The notes below the pieces were generated by a model, which saw only the letters and a program-made list of their open reading frames with translations, was not told the DNA's origin and did no database searches. A program made the translations under genes and the position numbers. A stretch of 64,000 nt of DNA from Porphyromonas canoris (GTDB lineage: Bacteria; Bacteroidota; Bacteroidia; Bacteroidales; Porphyromonadaceae): assembly GCF_000769115.1 (NCBI RefSeq), contig NZ_JQZV01000013.1, positions 105,150 to 169,149 on the forward strand. The letters run 5' to 3'. This document shows, in pieces, positions 2,803 to 59,035 of this stretch (its first letter is position 1; each line of letters opens with the position of its first letter).

Positions 2803-3945
2803 ATGTCCGGACGCATAAAGATTTTGGCAGAAAGCTCCGTGCCTTATCTTCGTGGGGTATTGGAGCATCTTGGGGAGGTTACCTATCTCCCCTCTTCGGA
2901 GTTTACGCCCGAAACGGTAAGGGATAAAGATTGGCTCATCATCCGGAGCATCACCAAGTGTACAGCCAACCTCCTGAAAGGGAGCAGCGTGAAGCTCATC
3001 ACGACGGCGACAATCGGCTTCGACCACATCGATACAGCCTACTGCGATGCCAATGGTATAGCTTGGCGCAACTCCCCCGGCTGTAATGCCAACGCCGTGG
3101 CACACTTTCTATCTTCCGCTCTGGCACTCTATGCGCTCCACTCCGGATACAGCCTCCGGGGAAAGACTATCGGTATCGTCGGAGTGGGACACGTGGGCTC
3201 TCTCATGGCGAAGTACGCCGAAGCATTGGGTATGAAGGTTCTTCTCAATGACCCCCCACGGGCAGAAAAAGAGGGCGATGCGGACTTTGTGGAGATCGCA
3301 CAGATATATGGCGAAGCGGATATTATCTCCTTCCATACGCCACTGACCAAAGAGGGAAGATACGCCACCTATCATCTCTTCGACTCCTCCTCTTTACCGC
3401 TTATCGGGAGAAAGCCCATCGTCATCAATGCCTGTCGTGGAGCGGTAACCGAAACGGAAGCACTGCTGGAGGGAATCCGCACGGGGCAGATCTCCAACGT
3501 GATAATAGACTGCTGGGAAAACGAGCCGAACATCTCCGACCGCCTGTTGGCTGAAGCCCTTATCGCCACTCCCCACGTGGCAGGATTCAGTGCAGATGGT
3601 AAGTGCAACGGTGCCGTCGCCTGCGTGAAAAACGGATGCGACTTCTTCGGAATAGAAGGTTCGCACCTGATAGATCAGATGACGCCTCCCCCTCCTAAAG
3701 AGCAAAACATCACATTGGATGCCTCCGACCCGGATGCGATACTGCATGCCCTCCTCCGCACACTCGACCTCACGGAGATAGACAGCCGGATGAGGGAGAA
3801 GCAGATGCCGTTCGAGCAGCAGCGCAAGGAGTATTTCTATCCTCGCGAACCGCATGCCTACACCGTTGTAAGCAGAGAGATGTCGGCAGATTTGAAAGAA
3901 AGGTTGGCTTCGATAGGCTTTAAGACTCTTTCCGAACCTGTTTGA
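2803..3945 (+). CDS. pdxB: Erythronate-4-phosphate dehydrogenase
   Basis: Second step of DXP-dependent pyridoxal phosphate synthesis, the NAD-dependent oxidation of 4-phosphoerythronate. The protein has 380 aa, close to the E. coli enzyme. The ATG at 2803 was chosen because it begins with the family N-terminus (MSGRIKILAE); the open frame continues upstream only inside sufE. D-isomer-specific 2-hydroxyacid dehydrogenase features are visible: the SITKCT substrate loop, a Rossmann fold with GIVGVGHVG, the catalytic arginine in NACRGA, and the catalytic histidine in ATPHVAG. The C-terminal DUF3410-like dimerisation domain is present, which separates PdxB from SerA. It is the last gene of the operon, with a strong rho-independent terminator 50 bp downstream. 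Confidence 0.95.
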   Translation: MSGRIKILAESSVPYLRGVLEHLGEVTYLPSSEFTPETVRDKDWLIIRSITKCTANLLKGSSVKLITTATIGFDHIDTAYCDANGIAWRNSPGCNANAVAHFLSSALALYALHSGYSLRGKTIGIVGVGHVGSLMAKYAEALGMKVLLNDPPRAEKEGDADFVEIAQIYGEADIISFHTPLTKEGRYATYHLFDSSSLPLIGRKPIVINACRGAVTETEALLEGIRTGQISNVIIDCWENEPNISDRLLAEALIATPHVAGFSADGKCNGAVACVKNGCDFFGIEGSHLIDQMTPPPPKEQNITLDASDPDAILHALLRTLDLTEIDSRMREKQMPFEQQRKEYFYPREPHAYTVVSREMSADLKERLASIGFKTLSEPV

Positions 3946-16145: not shown

Positions 16146-17714
16146 ATGTATTCAGATCAACTCAACGTTCAGATTCTTTGCTCTCTACTTAAAGCTCACG
16201 GATTGAAACGGGTGGTTCTCTGTCCCGGAAGCCGTAATGCTCCGATAATAGAGAGCATTTCCGGGGACTCTTTCTTTGAATGTTACTCCATTACAGATGA
16301 GCGCAGTGCCGGCTTTGTGGCATTGGGGTTGATTTTGGAAACGGAGCAGCCGGTTGCTGTTTGCTGCACGAGCGGATCTGCGTTGCTCAATCTGCACTCT
16401 GCCGTATCGGAAGCATTTTATCGCAACATGCCTCTTCTTGTCCTTTCTGCAGACCGTCCACAAGAATGGATAGGGCAGATGGATGGGCAGACCCTGCCGC
16501 AACCTTATCTGTTCGGGACGCTTTCTCGCAAGAGTGTTACTCTGCCGGAAGTGCACACTTCTGCGGATCATTGGTACTGCAACAGGCTTGTAAACGAGGC
16601 ACTGCTTGCTTTGCAGAGAAAGGACATACAAGGTCCGGTGCATATCAATATCCCTTTGAGCGAACCTCTTTTTGCTTTCAATACTCCGGCATTGCCGGTA
16701 GAAAGAAAGATAGAGTGGCTTTCCGATGCGGACGACATAAGGGCGCTTTGGAGCAAGGCGTCCCGAAAGCTGATCATTGTGGGGCAGATGGACTCTCAGC
16801 GTGAAGCTTTCTCTCTTATATTCCCGACCTCTGCTGTTGTCTTGGCAGACCATCTCTCGAACCGACCGCAAGAAGCTCTTGAGAGTCGCTTCTACAGCTA
16901 TTGCGAAGAGCTGCAACCCGATATTGTCGTTACGATAGGAGGCAGTATTTTGTCGAAGAAGCTGAAGCAGGATATGCGGAAATATCCTCCGAAGATGCAC
17001 TGGCACGTCTCTCCAAGTGGTGAGGTTGCCGATGTTTTCATGTCTCTTACGCATCTGATCCCGCTTTGTCCCAAAGATTTCACCGCGATTATAGCAAACG
17101 AAACGGCACGAGAGAGCGATCTTGCTTACAGACAGTTGTGGAAGAAGAACGCCATTGACCCCGTTGCGAGTGCTCCGAAAGAGCCGGAGAGCAGAGTAGT
17201 GGCAGAGGTCTTGAAGCAGATACCGCCCCGAAGCGTTCTCCATCTGGGCAATAGTTTGAGTGTCCGCCTTGCTCAGCACTATCCTCTTCCCGCAGATGTC
17301 CGGGTGCACTGCAACCGTGGGGTGAGCGGTATCGACGGTTCTCTCTCCGCCGCAGTAGGTGCCGCGATGGCATCGGATACGCTTCATTTCGTCCTGCTGG
17401 GCGATCTCAGTTTCTTCTATGACGCCAATGCGTTGTGGAACTCTCACGTACCATCCAATCTTCGGATCATCATCTTGAACAATGGAGAAGGCAGAATCTT
17501 CGAGACCATTCCGGGACTTCGAGACTGCTCATCGCTACGTCCGTTCGTTACCGGACAGCACCAATGCTCGGCTCAAGGATGGGTAGAAGGTTTGGGGCTG
17601 ACCTACATCGCCGTCAAAACCGAGGACCGGCTCGCTCTCGCCATATCAACCCTCGCCTCCGACCGATGCGATAAAGCCGTGGTAGTGGAGGTCTTTACGC
17701 CGCTCTCGGTCTGA
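16146..17714 (+). CDS. menD: SEPHCHC synthase, thiamine-diphosphate dependent
   Basis: 2-succinyl-5-enolpyruvyl-6-hydroxy-3-cyclohexene-1-carboxylate synthase, 522 aa. It joins isochorismate and 2-oxoglutarate in menaquinone synthesis. Visible features: VVLCPGSRNAPI at the N-terminus, the catalytic glutamate in TDERSAGFVALG, CCTSGSALLN, DRPQEWIGQMDGQTL, and the TPP/metal motif LLGDLSFFYDANALW followed by IILNNGEG. The length is slightly below E. coli MenD (556). It depends on TPP, which links it to the thiamine uptake genes elsewhere in the window. Later men genes do not follow; the operon ends here, 76 bp before a 22-bp repeat array. Confidence 0.96.
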   Translation: MYSDQLNVQILCSLLKAHGLKRVVLCPGSRNAPIIESISGDSFFECYSITDERSAGFVALGLILETEQPVAVCCTSGSALLNLHSAVSEAFYRNMPLLVLSADRPQEWIGQMDGQTLPQPYLFGTLSRKSVTLPEVHTSADHWYCNRLVNEALLALQRKDIQGPVHINIPLSEPLFAFNTPALPVERKIEWLSDADDIRALWSKASRKLIIVGQMDSQREAFSLIFPTSAVVLADHLSNRPQEALESRFYSYCEELQPDIVVTIGGSILSKKLKQDMRKYPPKMHWHVSPSGEVADVFMSLTHLIPLCPKDFTAIIANETARESDLAYRQLWKKNAIDPVASAPKEPESRVVAEVLKQIPPRSVLHLGNSLSVRLAQHYPLPADVRVHCNRGVSGIDGSLSAAVGAAMASDTLHFVLLGDLSFFYDANALWNSHVPSNLRIIILNNGEGRIFETIPGLRDCSSLRPFVTGQHQCSAQGWVEGLGLTYIAVKTEDRLALAISTLASDRCDKAVVVEVFTPLSV

Positions 17715-17790
17715 TCATCTCTCTTCTCACATCCCTACTCCTGTATCCGTATCGCTTTCCGTTTCTTTTCTTGATTTTTGGGAACGGACA
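17715..17790. other. Intergenic spacer between menD and repeat array
   Basis: Pyrimidine-rich sequence with no gene or clear hairpin terminator for menD. The interval from menD to the convergent hexosaminidase gene (17715-18426) is otherwise filled by the repeat arrays and terminator listed separately. Confidence 0.5.
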
Positions 17791-18186
17791 GATTGATAAT
17801 TATCGTTTCTCAGATTAGTAATTACCATTTCTCGGATTAGTAATTACCATTTCTCGGATTAGTAATTACCATTTCTTGGATTAGTAATTACCGTTTCTCG
17901 GATTAGTAATTACCGTTTCTCGGATTAGTAATTACTGTTTCGTGGATTAGTAATTACTGTTTCGTGGATTAGTAATTACCGTTTCTCGGATTAGTAATTA
18001 CTGTTTCTCGGATTAGTAATTACCATTTCGTGGATTAGTAATTACCGTTTCATGGATTAGTAATTACCGTTTCATGGATTAGTAATTACCGTTTCGTGGA
18101 TTAGTAATTACCATTTCGTGGATTAGTAATTACTGTTTCGTGGATTAGTAATTACTGTTTTTAGGATTGGTGATTATCATTTTCTG
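17791..18186. repeat. 22-bp tandem repeat array, 18 units
   Basis: Eighteen head-to-tail 22-bp units with no spacers: a degenerate first unit (17791-17812), sixteen close copies (17813-18164) and a degenerate last unit (18165-18186). Each core unit reads GATTAGTAATTAC, then a variable CA, CG or TG, then TTTC and a variable pair (TC, TT, GT, AT) before a final G. The perfect palindrome GTAATTAC is invariant in all sixteen core units. The unit length is not a multiple of 3 and no frame stays open, so the array is non-coding. It lies between two convergent genes. Confidence 0.97.
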
Positions 18187-18270
18187 GAAAGTAGCAAATC
18201 CTTTTCCATAAACCTTTAGAGCTTTCTCCAAAAAGATTAGGAACTTTTCTCTGAAACCTTTGGAGCTTTT
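18187..18270. repeat. Degenerate 22-bp-periodic repeat patch
   Basis: Directly abuts the main array. Core blocks CCTTTAGAGCT, GATTAGGAACT and CCTTTGGAGCT end at 18223, 18245 and 18267, each 22 bp apart, and are separated by CTCCA/CTCTGA-type spacers. The reverse complement resembles the patch at 58837-58945 (CCTAATCTTTTTGGAGAA followed by a CTAAAGG block). Confidence 0.7.
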
Positions 18271-18302
18271 TGCATGTCCCTGTATAGGCTCTTGACTTTA
18301 GG

Positions 18303-18351
18303 AGAGAAAATAACAATCGCCTGCCAAGAAGAAAGCTCTCGGCAGGCGATT
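18303..18351 (-). terminator. Terminator of the GH20 gene
   Basis: An 11-bp stem (AATCGCCTGCC at 18315-18325 with GGCAGGCGATT at 18341-18351). Read on the minus strand it is followed by GTTATTTTCTC, a modest T-rich tract. It lies 76 bp beyond the hexosaminidase stop. Confidence 0.75.
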
Positions 18352-18426
18352 ATGTGTGTTGAAAAATCTGCGATTTCGGAACAATTCTCTGCTTCGACAA
18401 GGCAAAGGCAGCTCCTTATCGACTCT

Positions 18427-20805
18427 TTACTTCTTGTGGAATACTCTGTAATCTTCTATCGGTGCGGATTTCGGAGTGTTATATGGCTTGTAAGCCACGC
18501 GGTTGTCGTTCCAGAGTGTCGGCCAGCCGCCTTGTACTTTGGCTTGTATCTCGTATTTGATCGAGTGCAGCCCTGCTCCGAGCGCAAGAGCAACATCCTG
18601 ACGAGAGTAGCGAGGTACTTCTTTGCTGTTGTCTATGACGAGTTCGCCATTGATCCATACTCTGTTCACGTCTGACTGGAAGACGTAAACGCCCGGCTCC
18701 GGTATGAGGAAGTATCCTTCTATGATGGTTCCGAAGATGTTGAAGTCGAACGTACCGGGAACAAGATAGCTCTTGTTGGCATCTTTCAATGCGGTGAGGA
18801 TGCCGCTCTCCATGTTGGCTGACTGATGGGAAGCCAAATCTTCTACTTTTCTGACATCCTCTTTGTGGGTGATAAACTTGAGCCCCTGAGCATAAACCCC
18901 GCTTGAAGCAAGAGCCACACTGTCTATCGCTTCCACAGGAGCGGTATAGTTGTCCAACTTGGTAAGGGTCAGTGTGCGGACTTTGCTTAATACTCCCGAA
19001 GGCAGTACGCTGGCGATCTTGAGCGTTGTAGTCTCATTGAATGTGAGAGGAGCCGTATATTCCGTACTCTTTTCATTAGGCTCCGATCCGTCGGTGGTGT
19101 ACACCATCTTCACAGGGCGGGTTGTCTTGAACGGAATGGTAAGGCTGTCGATGAACTGGATGCGGTCGAGAGAACCGTTTTCCTGCTCCGGAAGCGGAAT
19201 ATGATAGTTGACATCGTGCATGTCGAGACGCACATAAGTGTTGTTCACACGGCGAGAGAAGTCGTGGAAATCTTTTCTGTCTACAGGTGTCCATCCTATC
19301 TCGGCAAGAGCAAACATACGTGGATAGGCGTAGTATTGACGGATGCTTTCGTCATATAGATACTCTCCCCAAAGATTGGCTTGTGGTCCGAGTATGAGAT
19401 GCTGCTTTTCCGCCGGAATCTTATCCGATGCGGGGTTGTAAGAATAGACCCTTTCAAGTGTAGAGTAACCTCCGATGGCGACCGGCTCTACATTATGATC
19501 GCCCTGGTAAGCATCAATATAAAGACCGGTAGTCCATGGCGACATGATCACTTCATGATTAAGCTCTGTCGCCGCAATACCTCCCTCTTCTCCTCTCCAT
19601 GACATAACGATGGCAGATGGTGCCAATCCGCCTTCGAGAATCTCATCCCAACCTATGAGGGCTTTGTTGTTCTCGGCAAGAAAGCGTCCTATTCTGGTGA
19701 TGAAGTAGCTTTGAAGCTCATGCTCGTCTTTCAGATTCTCCGCTTTGATTCTCGCTTGGCACAGCGGACACTCTTTCCATCTTGTCTTGGGGCATTCGTC
19801 GCCTCCGATGTGGAAATATTTTGAGGGGAATAGCGGTATCACTTCGGAGATGACATCCTCCAAGAACTTGAAAACTTCTTCTTTCCCGGCACAGAATACG
19901 TCTTCTTCCACCCCCCAGATATTGCGCACCTTAAAGTCGCGTGGGAAGCAAGCCAACTCCGGATACGCAACAAGTGCAGCCATGGCGTGCCCCGGAAGCT
20001 CTATCTCCGGAATGATCTCTACATAGCGTTCGGCAGCATAAGCAACAATATCTTTGATCTCTTCTTGAGTGTAGTAGAAAGGACCATATTCAAATCCTTC
20101 TCCTTCTGTTCTCACAGAACCTACCTCCACAAGACGAGGATACTTTTTGATTTCGATACGCCAAGCCTGATCTTCTGTCAAGTGCCAGTGTAGTTTATTG
20201 ACCTTAAGCATGGAGAGAATGTCTATGTGCTTCTTCATGTCTTCCACAGTGATGAAGTGGCGACAAGCATCCAAAAGAAGTCCGCGATAGTGGTATCTCG
20301 GATAGTCCTTGATGGATACGGCAGGGATGGTCCAAGCCACATCTTCCACTCTTTTGCTGCTTTCTACTTCTGCCGGAAGGAGTTGCAAAAGAGTTTGAAG
20401 TCCATAGAATGCACCTTGAGGAGTGGCACCCACGATGTCGATACCTGCTTCGGATGAGTTGAAAGTGTACGCTTCGTGGTTCTCCGAAATAGAAGGATCC
20501 ACAGAGATACGAATGTAGTTGCTGCTAACCGGAGCCGAAACCAATCCGAGCTTGTAACCGGTGGATGCCATAAGCTTATCGGCAAAAAGCTTGGCTATTC
20601 CGGTAAGTGTGTCTCCCTCTGCCACAAAGACAGTATTGCGGGTGATCGTGAATGCTCCTGCGGTTGTCTCGGTAAGCTCTACCGGCTGAGGAATGATGTT
20701 GATGCCTTCATTATAAGGCTTTACCACATACTCTTTCGGAGTGCATGCGGTAATAAAAAGCGTTGCCAACAGCGCGGCAGCTAAAGCATGAAAGTATTTT
20801 CTCAT
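18427..20805 (-). CDS. Beta-N-acetylhexosaminidase, GH20 lipoprotein with PA14 domain
   Basis: Exported glycosidase, 792 aa, releasing terminal GlcNAc or GalNAc from host or bacterial glycans. The lipoprotein signal ends FITAC (C21). An N-terminal GH20b domain (about 35-160) precedes the GH20 catalytic barrel (about 165-520), with the catalytic pair D336-E337 in HIGGDECPKTRW and WHLTEDQAWRIEIK upstream. A chitobiase-type C-terminal domain follows (about 545-630, MVYTTDGSEPNEKSTEY). The last about 140 residues fit a PA14-like carbohydrate-binding domain (VYVFQSDVNRVWINGELVIDN). Family members in Bacteroidetes digest mucin and N-glycans. It stands alone between the repeat array and glyA. Confidence 0.95.
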   Translation of the reverse strand: MRKYFHALAAALLATLFITACTPKEYVVKPYNEGINIIPQPVELTETTAGAFTITRNTVFVAEGDTLTGIAKLFADKLMASTGYKLGLVSAPVSSNYIRISVDPSISENHEAYTFNSSEAGIDIVGATPQGAFYGLQTLLQLLPAEVESSKRVEDVAWTIPAVSIKDYPRYHYRGLLLDACRHFITVEDMKKHIDILSMLKVNKLHWHLTEDQAWRIEIKKYPRLVEVGSVRTEGEGFEYGPFYYTQEEIKDIVAYAAERYVEIIPEIELPGHAMAALVAYPELACFPRDFKVRNIWGVEEDVFCAGKEEVFKFLEDVISEVIPLFPSKYFHIGGDECPKTRWKECPLCQARIKAENLKDEHELQSYFITRIGRFLAENNKALIGWDEILEGGLAPSAIVMSWRGEEGGIAATELNHEVIMSPWTTGLYIDAYQGDHNVEPVAIGGYSTLERVYSYNPASDKIPAEKQHLILGPQANLWGEYLYDESIRQYYAYPRMFALAEIGWTPVDRKDFHDFSRRVNNTYVRLDMHDVNYHIPLPEQENGSLDRIQFIDSLTIPFKTTRPVKMVYTTDGSEPNEKSTEYTAPLTFNETTTLKIASVLPSGVLSKVRTLTLTKLDNYTAPVEAIDSVALASSGVYAQGLKFITHKEDVRKVEDLASHQSANMESGILTALKDANKSYLVPGTFDFNIFGTIIEGYFLIPEPGVYVFQSDVNRVWINGELVIDNSKEVPRYSRQDVALALGAGLHSIKYEIQAKVQGGWPTLWNDNRVAYKPYNTPKSAPIEDYRVFHKK

Positions 20806-26033: not shown

Positions 26034-26574
26034 TTTTTATATATTCCATACCGCAAAATGCCCACTTTTTTCTTGCTCTCTATTTTGATCGGAGGGGTTG
26101 TTTTCAGAGCATGACCGAACTGTTAAATTGATCTCATTTTATTAACACAAATTCCGATACCTGTTAAGCACAAACGGTAAACGAGCATATTTTGTCGGCT
26201 TAACGTGTTTAATTTTTCAACGAACACGTTTAGTGATTTCATTAAACACGTTTACCGGATTCGATTAACGTGTTTAGAATTTTAAGTTACTTGGTTGGTT
26301 ATTAGTGTTTTAGCTGTTTTCTCCCCTTTTTTGCTGTTTTTGTTCACAAAATTGTATTAAGATTTATTTACAAGTGTAGGTGTTAAAATTTACTCCTATT
26401 AACGCGAAAAAGCCCCGTCAAACGGACGAAGAAAAATTTTTTCTCAAATTCAGGCTGGTTTTTATTGGGTTGATTGATACGAGGTTATAGGAGTATTGTC
26501 TCTTTCTTTCCGGATTGAGTCGGGAAAGAAGCTCTTCTTCTCGTCCGCATGAGGAACTCTGTTTTTATATAAAA
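26034..26574 (+). mobile_element. MITE-like 541-bp dispersed element, copy A
   Basis: First of three non-coding copies (also 33068-33608 and 43491-44030). The left end reads TTTTTATATATTCC and the right end TTTTTATATAAAA, giving short TTTTATATA terminal inverted repeats. Best-conserved parts are TTTCAGAGCATGACCGAACT, the ACGAGCATAT block and a tandem set of four AACGTGTT/AACACGTT boxes at 26202, 26223, 26245 and 26267 (21, 22, 22 bp apart). It carries no open frame conserved between copies and no transposase. It lies between two convergent genes and ends 12 bp before the ompH terminator. Confidence 0.75.
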
Positions 26575-33067: not shown

Positions 33068-33608
33068 TTTTTATATATTCCGTACTGCCAAAATATCTCG
33101 TCGAAATGGCTCTTCTATTTCGCTCGGACACCCTCTTTTCAGAGCACGACCGAACTGTTAAATCAGCCCCGTTTTATTAACACCATTTTCGATACCTGTT
33201 CAGCGAAAACGCTAAACGAGCATATTCTTTCGGCTTAACGTGTTTAATTTTTCAGTGAACACGTTTACTGATTTCATTTAATACGTTTACCGGATTCAAT
33301 TAACGTGTTTAGAAATTTTCTTAATCTGTTGTTCATGAGGGTTTTATCTTTTTAGGGGCTAAAAAGCAGGTTTTTTGCTGATTTTTCTCATTAAGAAATA
33401 TTTGCGGCTTTGTGTCTCAAATTTTGAGTTTATTAACTCGAAAACGGGGCTTGAAACCGACCGAGAGGAGAAAATTTCCGAGAATCGAGATTTTTGTAGT
33501 TGCTTATCGGACAGGTTGTTATGGTTTTTGGCTCTTTTTCTTGACAAAATTCTCTAATCGGACTTGGGCGATTTGAGCTTCAAACTGCCATTTCACTTTT
33601 ATATAAAA
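33068..33608 (+). mobile_element. MITE-like 541-bp dispersed element, copy B
   Basis: Same length and orientation as copy A. It starts ATTTTTATATATTCCG and ends CTTTTATATAAAA. The box set is at 33237 (AACGTGTT), 33258 (AACACGTT), 33280 (AATACGTT, one mismatch) and 33302 (AACGTGTT), again 21, 22, 22 bp apart. Middle conserved blocks include AGAGCACGACCGAACTGTTA and TAAACGAGCATATT. The right third has diverged most. Overlapping open frames in it differ between copies and are not genes. Confidence 0.75.
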
Positions 33609-43490: not shown

Positions 43491-44030
43491 TTTTTATATA
43501 AAAATGGAGTTGGAGAAAAGGCATAAGAAGAATTATTTCTTCAATCTGAATCGGATGACAAAAATGAGAGATTCTCTCAATTTTCTGTCTGATAGTCTGT
43601 TATGGATTTCTTTGATTTCGGAAATTTTTATCTCCCGGTCGGTTTCAGGTCCCGTTTTCGCGTTAATAGGTGTAAATTTTAACACTGTCGTCTGTAAACA
43701 AATCCTAATGCAATTTTGTGCCCAAAAACAGCAAAAAAGGGGCAAAAGGCGCAAAGTGTTAATTGTCAGCGCTATAAGCAAAATTTCTAAACACGTTAAT
43801 CAAATCCGGTAAACGTGTTTAATGAAATCGGTAAACGTGTTCATTGAAAAATTAAACACGTTAAGCCGACACAATATGCTCGTTTAGCGTTTTGGGTGAA
43901 CGGGTATCGAAAATGGTGTTAATAAAATGGGGCGAATTTAACAATTTGCTCGTGCTCTGAAAACGCCCCCTCTGATCAAAATAGAGAGCGAGAAAAAAGT
44001 GAGCTTTTTTCGGGATGGAATATATAAAAA
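43491..44030 (-). mobile_element. MITE-like 540-bp dispersed element, copy C (inverted)
   Basis: Inverted relative to copies A and B. Read on the minus strand it begins ATTTTTATATATTCC and ends TTTTTATATAAAAA. Boxes on the plus strand are at 43790 (AACACGTT), 43812 (AACGTGTT), 43834 (AACGTGTT) and 43855 (AACACGTT), spaced 22, 22, 21 bp, a mirror image of A and B. Long blocks match copy A, for example GGGCACAAAATTGCATTAGG against its counterpart and CCTATTAACGCGAAAA. Located between tRNA-Met and the 3' end of pfkA. Open frames across it are not conserved in the other copies. Confidence 0.75.
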
Positions 44031-58836: not shown

Positions 58837-58945
58837 CGAAAAAAAGTACCTAATCTTTTTGGGAAAGTACCTAATCTTTTTGGAAAAAGTACCTAATCTT
58901 TTTTGGAGAAGCACTAAAGGTTTTGGGTAAAAGCACTAAAGGTAT
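58837..58945 (+). repeat. 22-bp-periodic tandem repeat patch
   Basis: Five consecutive units: three with AAAGTACCTAATCTTTTTGG (GTAC at 58846, 58867, 58889) and two with AAGCACTAAAGG (GCAC at 58911, 58933). Spacings are 21, 22, 22 and 22 bp although the sequence changes between units 3 and 4. The reverse complement resembles the patch at 18187-18270. The rest of the gap, 58946-59035, shows nothing recognisable. Confidence 0.8.
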
Positions 58946-59035
58946 TTGTCGTTTTGTCCGGAGATAATTTTTTCTTTTGTTTATACTCTGAAATAAAGGA
59001 AGGGGGAGGAAGCCGGGCTTGAAGCCTTTGTGAAT

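Follow-up and report, generated by a model that had tools for sequence, protein, structure and literature searches.

A 22-bp tandem array beside a menD-like gene and its counterparts among the intergenic repeats of Porphyromonas

The window, that is, the whole 64-kb stretch of DNA that was analysed, is part of contig C5 of a 2.2-Mb Porphyromonas genome assembled in 14 contigs (C-numbers denote contigs). It carries on its plus strand a gene for a menD-like thiamine-pyrophosphate enzyme (16146–17714; an ORF with the Pfam domains TPP_enzyme_N and TPP_enzyme_C), which converges with a minus-strand ORF for a GH20 beta-hexosaminidase (18427–20805; Pfam Glyco_hydro_20), 90% identical to that of a Porphyromonas MAG. 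Between the ends of these two genes, at 17714 and 18427, lies a tandem array of 22-bp units that abut without spacers, as a first-pass annotation had described. The stop codon of the menD-like gene is ∼76 bp upstream of the array. The array comprises 16 core units (17812–18163, plus strand) bearing GTAATTAC at unit positions 7–14, flanked by two degenerate plus-strand units, AGATTGATAATTATCGTTTCTC (17790–17811) and GGATTGGTGATTATCATTTTCT (18164–18185). Units of this type were termed class A. The 22-bp phase extends to about position 18275 through three to four degenerate units of another type, class B, in reverse orientation (18190–18275, minus strand). The hexosaminidase gene has a terminator-like hairpin between itself and the array (18313–18353, minus strand), and a similar hairpin was seen by eye 3′ of the orthologous gene in the sister MAG G008 (L035). 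For the menD-like gene, the terminator scan found no terminator before the array.

In the window there are 16 occurrences of GTAATTAC, each at 17818 + 22k and the last at 18148; dinucleotide shuffles contained a mean of 0.59 occurrences and never reached 16. TRF placed the array at 17797–18176, with a period of 22, 17.3 copies and 92% matches, and the 22-bp spacing, close to two helical turns, is kept without indels. The annotated make-up of 16 near-identical and two degenerate units in exact 22-bp steps was thus confirmed. A single 13-mer, GATTAGTAATTAC, is common to all 16 core units, in agreement with the 13 bases annotated as unchanged. Variation is confined to unit positions 1, 15, 16 and 20–22 (in the register used here), and all eight variant types of the array lie outside the 13-mer (P = 0.0004 for random placement, a test devised post hoc). 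At positions 15–16, the core units (17818–18163) have CG, TG or CA but never TA, as CpG transitions predict. Adjacent units resemble each other more than they do under shuffled order (P = 0.0027), which indicates that slippage, or homogenisation by conversion, shapes the array. In the class-B stretch alongside, TRF reported a period of 22 at 18202–18271 (3.2 copies, 64% matches); the class-B pattern matched at C5:123356–123374 and C5:123400–123418 (minus strand, three mismatches each), and the class-B model R2 gave weak matches (E = 0.003 and 0.03).

When the genome was searched for further copies of the unit, as the annotation had recommended, class A was found to form six more arrays. Model R1 located class A at seven places, on C1, C5 (the array under study), C8 (two), C9, C10 and C11; that on C9 consists of only a few degenerate units. 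A diverged relative with a TAATTA core, weakly matched by R1, is present at C5:762.7–763.2k. The class-B unit, AAAGCACTAAAGGTTT followed by 6 bp, forms arrays at seven places according to pattern and model together, and also occurs as scattered single or degenerate copies and as a short stretch at 58.85k of the window, where a second array of class-B-type units of two kinds has a period of 21–22 (58838–58960, plus strand). Class B adjoins class A at two loci: on C8 and, reversed and degenerate, at the array under study. Two A-run-rich types, classes C and D, are present in a random sample of the genome (described below) and elsewhere, and their arrays show rare 1-bp length changes. At L069 (3739–5012), more than 1 kb of 22-bp units shifts stepwise through several A-rich unit types. 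A dispersed intergenic element of the AACACGTTTACCGATTTCATTA type, with two to three 22-bp units, lies at 26150–26290, 33190–33330 and 43780–43900 of the window; units of this type, class E, accounted by pattern for 15 of the 27 noncoding arrays of the random sample and are present in G008 too. Class-B-like units were also seen as inverted, terminator-hairpin-like pairs at L060 (∼2676–2719) and L059 (∼3173–3217), one of them directly before an A-like array, and given these pairs class B may stem from a terminator arm.

Outside this genome class A is rare: it was found in two of the 12 genomes of the genus, and in only one of 247 genomes of the order, that of the window itself. A two-unit class-A pattern had no exact match in genome_contigs or viral_contigs, in scans that may omit the window's genome, and the phage, plasmid and viral collections contained no match to the array. 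The unit classes are at best 13/22 alike. This figure was reached on one strand for the pairs A/B, A/C, B/C, B/D and C/D, with uncorrected P values of 0.04–0.09, while the pair A/D was not among the best 40 of 171 unit pairs. At these uncorrected values the alignments are only suggestive, and common ancestry of all units was not adopted.

To describe how the units vary, variant types (a position plus a base) were pooled over arrays, excluding units of <17/22 identity; this retained 69 of 76 class-A units and 86 class-B units, within hand-set ranges that drop edge units of another type. In class A, 12 of 20 distinct variant types fell in circular positions 19–22,1–2 (P = 0.0035, corrected for the choice of window along the unit), and in class B the same positions held 13 of 16 (P = 5 × 10–5, likewise corrected). 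In both classes, therefore, the pooled variants divide the unit into a conserved 16-bp core and a variable 6-bp segment, the linker. Variant types private to one array were not significantly concentrated in the best window (5/7 for class A, P = 0.16; 5/8 for class B, P = 0.31), so part of the core/linker signal may reflect shared ancestry. In G008, class B likewise has similar cores and varying linkers, although the pattern used to find it specified the core and allowed any linker. Transitions made up 12 of the 20 class-A and eight of the 16 class-B variant types, and many variants are of the CG/TG/CA kind. Decay of CpG was nevertheless rejected as the sole cause of the variable sites, since CpG is only mildly low in this genome (0.90) and other sites vary too.

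The 8-bp palindrome, which had been annotated as invariant, did not hold up as the key element of the unit. It is invariant within the array under study, but its outer bases differ among class-A arrays (ATAATTAC, GTAATTAT), and TAATTA alone is kept in nearly all of them. The columns of TAATTA were invariant in 46 of 48 instances, compared with 47 of 69 for other columns with an A/T majority (P = 1.6 × 10–4); the majority base was used here because a contrast of G/C-bearing with A/T-only columns is partly circular. The outer G/C pair varied much as G/C does elsewhere in the unit (8/14 array-columns, versus 29/45 G/C columns outside the palindrome). For four class-A consensus units, including those of the window and C11, 17–28% of shuffled units had a dyad as good as GTAATTAC; for that at C8:58.7k only 3% did. 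In class B the dyad test was not significant. Across 26 hand-picked unit families dyads were enriched overall (six at P < 0.05; combined P = 1.2 × 10–6), with one significant family among the 12 from the window's genome and five among the 14 from other genomes, while none of 14 outgroup units was significant; these control units came from 17 noncoding outgroup arrays, mostly of other periods. The palindrome was accordingly discarded as the unifying feature, being significant in six of 26 families only, in class A at C8:58.7k alone and in class B not at all.

What stayed constant was the period. In 20 random 20-kb stretches (400 kb) from five of the 14 contigs, all 27 noncoding TRF arrays had a period of 21 (n = 5), 22 (n = 21) or 66 (n = 1); under a looser ORF mask there were 28, one of period 23. 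When class-E arrays were set aside using a pattern written by the analyst, 12 of the 27 remained and all 12 fitted the period, although one still looked E-like by eye. First-order Markov resampling of the sampled noncoding DNA yielded 0–2 arrays per replicate (n = 20 replicates). Nine other Porphyromonadaceae, seven of the genus and two from a sister genus, yielded 44 noncoding arrays; 25 had a period of 22, 44 or 66, with sequences that were mostly different, and 32 a period of 21–23 or its multiples. In seven other Bacteroidales the corresponding values were 1/23 and 3/23. The 22/44/66 periods thus separated the relatives from the other Bacteroidales (25/44 versus 1/23; Fisher P = 1.5 × 10–5), as they did the window's genome (22/27 versus 1/23; P = 1.8 × 10–8), with the proviso that arrays within one genome are not fully independent, that ‘noncoding’ here means outside a crude ORF mask and that the stretches sampled were mostly non-random except in G000, G002 and G011. 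G006, a genome of the genus sampled over 60 kb, had no arrays, and in G200 only two of 13 had a period of 22 bp. For G008, 271 kb of stretches, unmasked and partly chosen for matches, gave TRF periods of 20–22 or 44, besides two 63-bp rows. A perfect 23-bp array in the window's genome (L068 2730–2815; 3.7 copies, 100%), which a later mask classed as coding, is an exception to the 22-bp period. The same genome contains near-identical two-copy duplications of 21–22 bp that differ in sequence. With arrays masked, its A/T phasing showed a small, weak peak at 22, to which degenerate arrays left in place may contribute. Among the 22-bp arrays of other sequence in other Porphyromonas genomes are L127 1521–1782 and L125 7123–7203 and 18505–18558; their units include AGTCTCTCCCTAGAGGGACTCC and another with CTAATACCGGTATTAG, a perfect 16-bp palindrome.

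The position of the arrays relative to genes differed between classes. Judged from ORFs, seven of the eight class-A or A-like arrays lie 3′ of a gene end and in the same orientation as that gene, the exception being that on C10. Class-B arrays followed no placement rule: two lie between divergent ORFs and others are antisense to a neighbour. G008 has a class-B array, some four units long, upstream of a gene whose DNA is 81% identical over 1253 bp to that of the gene 3′ of a C8 class-A array of the window's genome, and the gene on the other flank of this G008 array matches (69%) a neighbour of the C9 class-A array. The class-A array of G008 adjoins a gene with 63-bp repeats that, among the matches listed, resembles the gene before the class-C/D array on C10. 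Both of the class-A/B arrays found in G008 thus stand beside genes whose counterparts in the window's genome border arrays of another class, a comparison that rests on a MAG and on one flank per locus, the second gene being repetitive and maybe a paralogue. Two class-A loci of the window's genome (L009 on C8 and L062 on C9) match the two flanks of a single G008 array (L165, on its contig C102), as if arrays sat at rearrangement breakpoints, G008 being a MAG. For most of the 22 loci compared, the G008 stretches examined held no convincing counterpart. Each species was represented by one genome, and at the locus under study the G008 contigs break off near both the menD-like gene and the hexosaminidase gene, so that they carry only part of the orthologous spacer; in it a class-E-like stretch was seen by eye after the menD-like gene.

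Several known kinds of repeat resemble the array in part. Iterons and other phased multi-site protein arrays consist of direct repeats of ∼20–22 bp that place their sites on one helical face. The array shares this layout, but its neighbours are a menD-like and a GH20 gene and not a replication or partition gene, and such arrays occur at many loci and in several classes per chromosome. An iteron origin was rejected because no cognate replication gene is adjacent, and a CRISPR array because the units abut and unique spacers are lacking. Bacterial VNTR or minisatellite loci consist of head-to-tail noncoding units with homogenised neighbours, and the array does too; it departs from them in the core/linker split and in the single period that differing sequences share across the family. 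Tandem repeats of 22 nt in P. gingivalis W83 were reportedly described in the 2003 genome paper of that strain. PMC4596501 (Klein et al. 2015) cites an earlier description of tandem direct repeats of 41, 23 and 22 nt in W83 without exact locations. The last share genus, unit length and tandem layout with the array; the part of the text consulted gives neither their sequences nor their places. The same paper describes BrickBuilt, a 23-nt MITE minisatellite found in P. gingivalis. BrickBuilt too is spacer-free and intergenic, occurs at many loci with a locus-dependent copy number and has most of its variable sites within a single part of the unit, but differs in its 23-nt unit, its consensus and its leader and tail with IS5-type terminal inverted repeats, whereas the array has a 22-bp unit and no such ends were found. 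Beyond one sentence in the part of PMC4596501 available, the literature within reach, which left out most subscription papers, yielded no account of the common 22-bp period or of these arrays.

For the observed arrays, their period, the core/linker split of two classes and the 22-bp arrays of relatives, the explanation we tentatively place first is that ∼16-bp sites, separated by 6-bp linkers, are arrayed in helical phase for a putative DNA-binding protein. The array would be one member of a genome-wide intergenic set of 22-bp satellites of the Porphyromonadaceae, each unit having a conserved core of ∼16 bp and a linker whose length is fixed while its sequence is unconstrained. A period of two turns would turn all cores to the same side of the helix, where a putative protein, e.g. 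a nucleoid or recombination protein, could load side by side, and copy number would then rise and fall through slippage. The binding, the identity of the protein and the role of the bound array are what we infer from this arrangement. A period that holds across unlike sequences, a linker that varies at constant length and arrays that recur at corresponding loci all favour a constraint on spacing, and it is for this reason that the site array is preferred; they suggest that spacing, more than any one palindrome, is the trait preserved. The annotation's preference for a phased binding array over a random minisatellite was in this respect upheld, by the family-wide period and by the 6-bp variant segment in two classes, but slippage and homogenisation of the units are also evident. 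Several points stand against the site array. No binding protein came to light, variants private to one array are not significantly concentrated, the dyad is significant in neither class B nor, apart from one consensus, class A, and class A is confined to few genomes. Units of classes A, B and C are so unlike that a single protein would need to accept widely different cores, and the two-copy duplications of 21–22 bp mean that the period could be a mutational product.

A close rival, and a real possibility in its own right, is that these are neutral minisatellites, arising in noncoding DNA by a mutational process of this lineage that duplicates about two helical turns in tandem, the copies being multiplied and evened out by slippage and homogenisation with no protein involved. 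The greater likeness of adjacent units (P = 0.0027), the two-copy duplications of period 21–22 and differing sequence, the share of transitions among variant types (12/20 and 8/16), the restriction of class A to close kin and the 22-nt repeats already reported for P. gingivalis W83 (as noted in the available part of PMC4596501) would all be expected of it. Neutrality does not predict that variants gather in one segment common to two unlike units, nor that TAATTA is conserved above other A/T columns. It is less probable that the arrays are a bacterial counterpart of satellite DNA. Each species would then keep many intergenic arrays with a rapid turnover of unit sequence, even next to orthologous genes, and a lineage-wide DNA-organising protein, reading spacing and shape more than sequence, would hold the 22-bp period and the core/linker layout constant.

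A role at the RNA level, with the array as the 3′ untranslated region of menD acting in termination or RNA stability, appears improbable. It would agree with the placement after a gene end, in the same orientation, of all but one of the eight class-A or A-like arrays, with the lack of a detected menD terminator before the array and with the folding of class-A RNA, which beat column-permuted arrays in six of six tests (three arrays, both senses; z from –0.8 to –3.7, three beyond –2). The fold excess was, however, equal or larger in the antisense, and class B had none (z from 0.0 to 0.9 in four tests). Moreover, the terminator scan flagged five of eight class-A loci upstream of the array, three of them convincingly (C8:58.6k, C9 and C11), and these arrays would then not form part of the message; of the class-B arrays, two are flanked by divergent genes and others are antisense to a neighbour, and Rfam returned only sub-threshold miRNA matches. 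Least probable of all, and very much so, is the remnant of a BrickBuilt-like MITE, a minisatellite inside terminal inverted repeats. The genus is the same, and the arrays are intergenic, dispersed over several loci and degenerate at their edges, as such a remnant might be, but the 23-nt BrickBuilt unit, AGAYCATARTATCCTCTCRTRTG, had no match in the assembly at up to three mismatches, and any inverted or direct repeat shared by the two flanks is at most 7 bp long. A BrickBuilt-type end matched once, with two mismatches, inside the class-B stretch, and the window total of nine such matches against 6.6 expected is within chance. With no ends found, an origin from a MITE is disfavoured.

Noncoding tandem repeats of bacteria are usually taken as neutral typing markers. 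A family whose arrays mostly share one helical period regardless of sequence would point either to a chromosome-organising protein new to science or to a mutational step of two helical turns, and both alternatives are directly testable in cultivable Porphyromonas.
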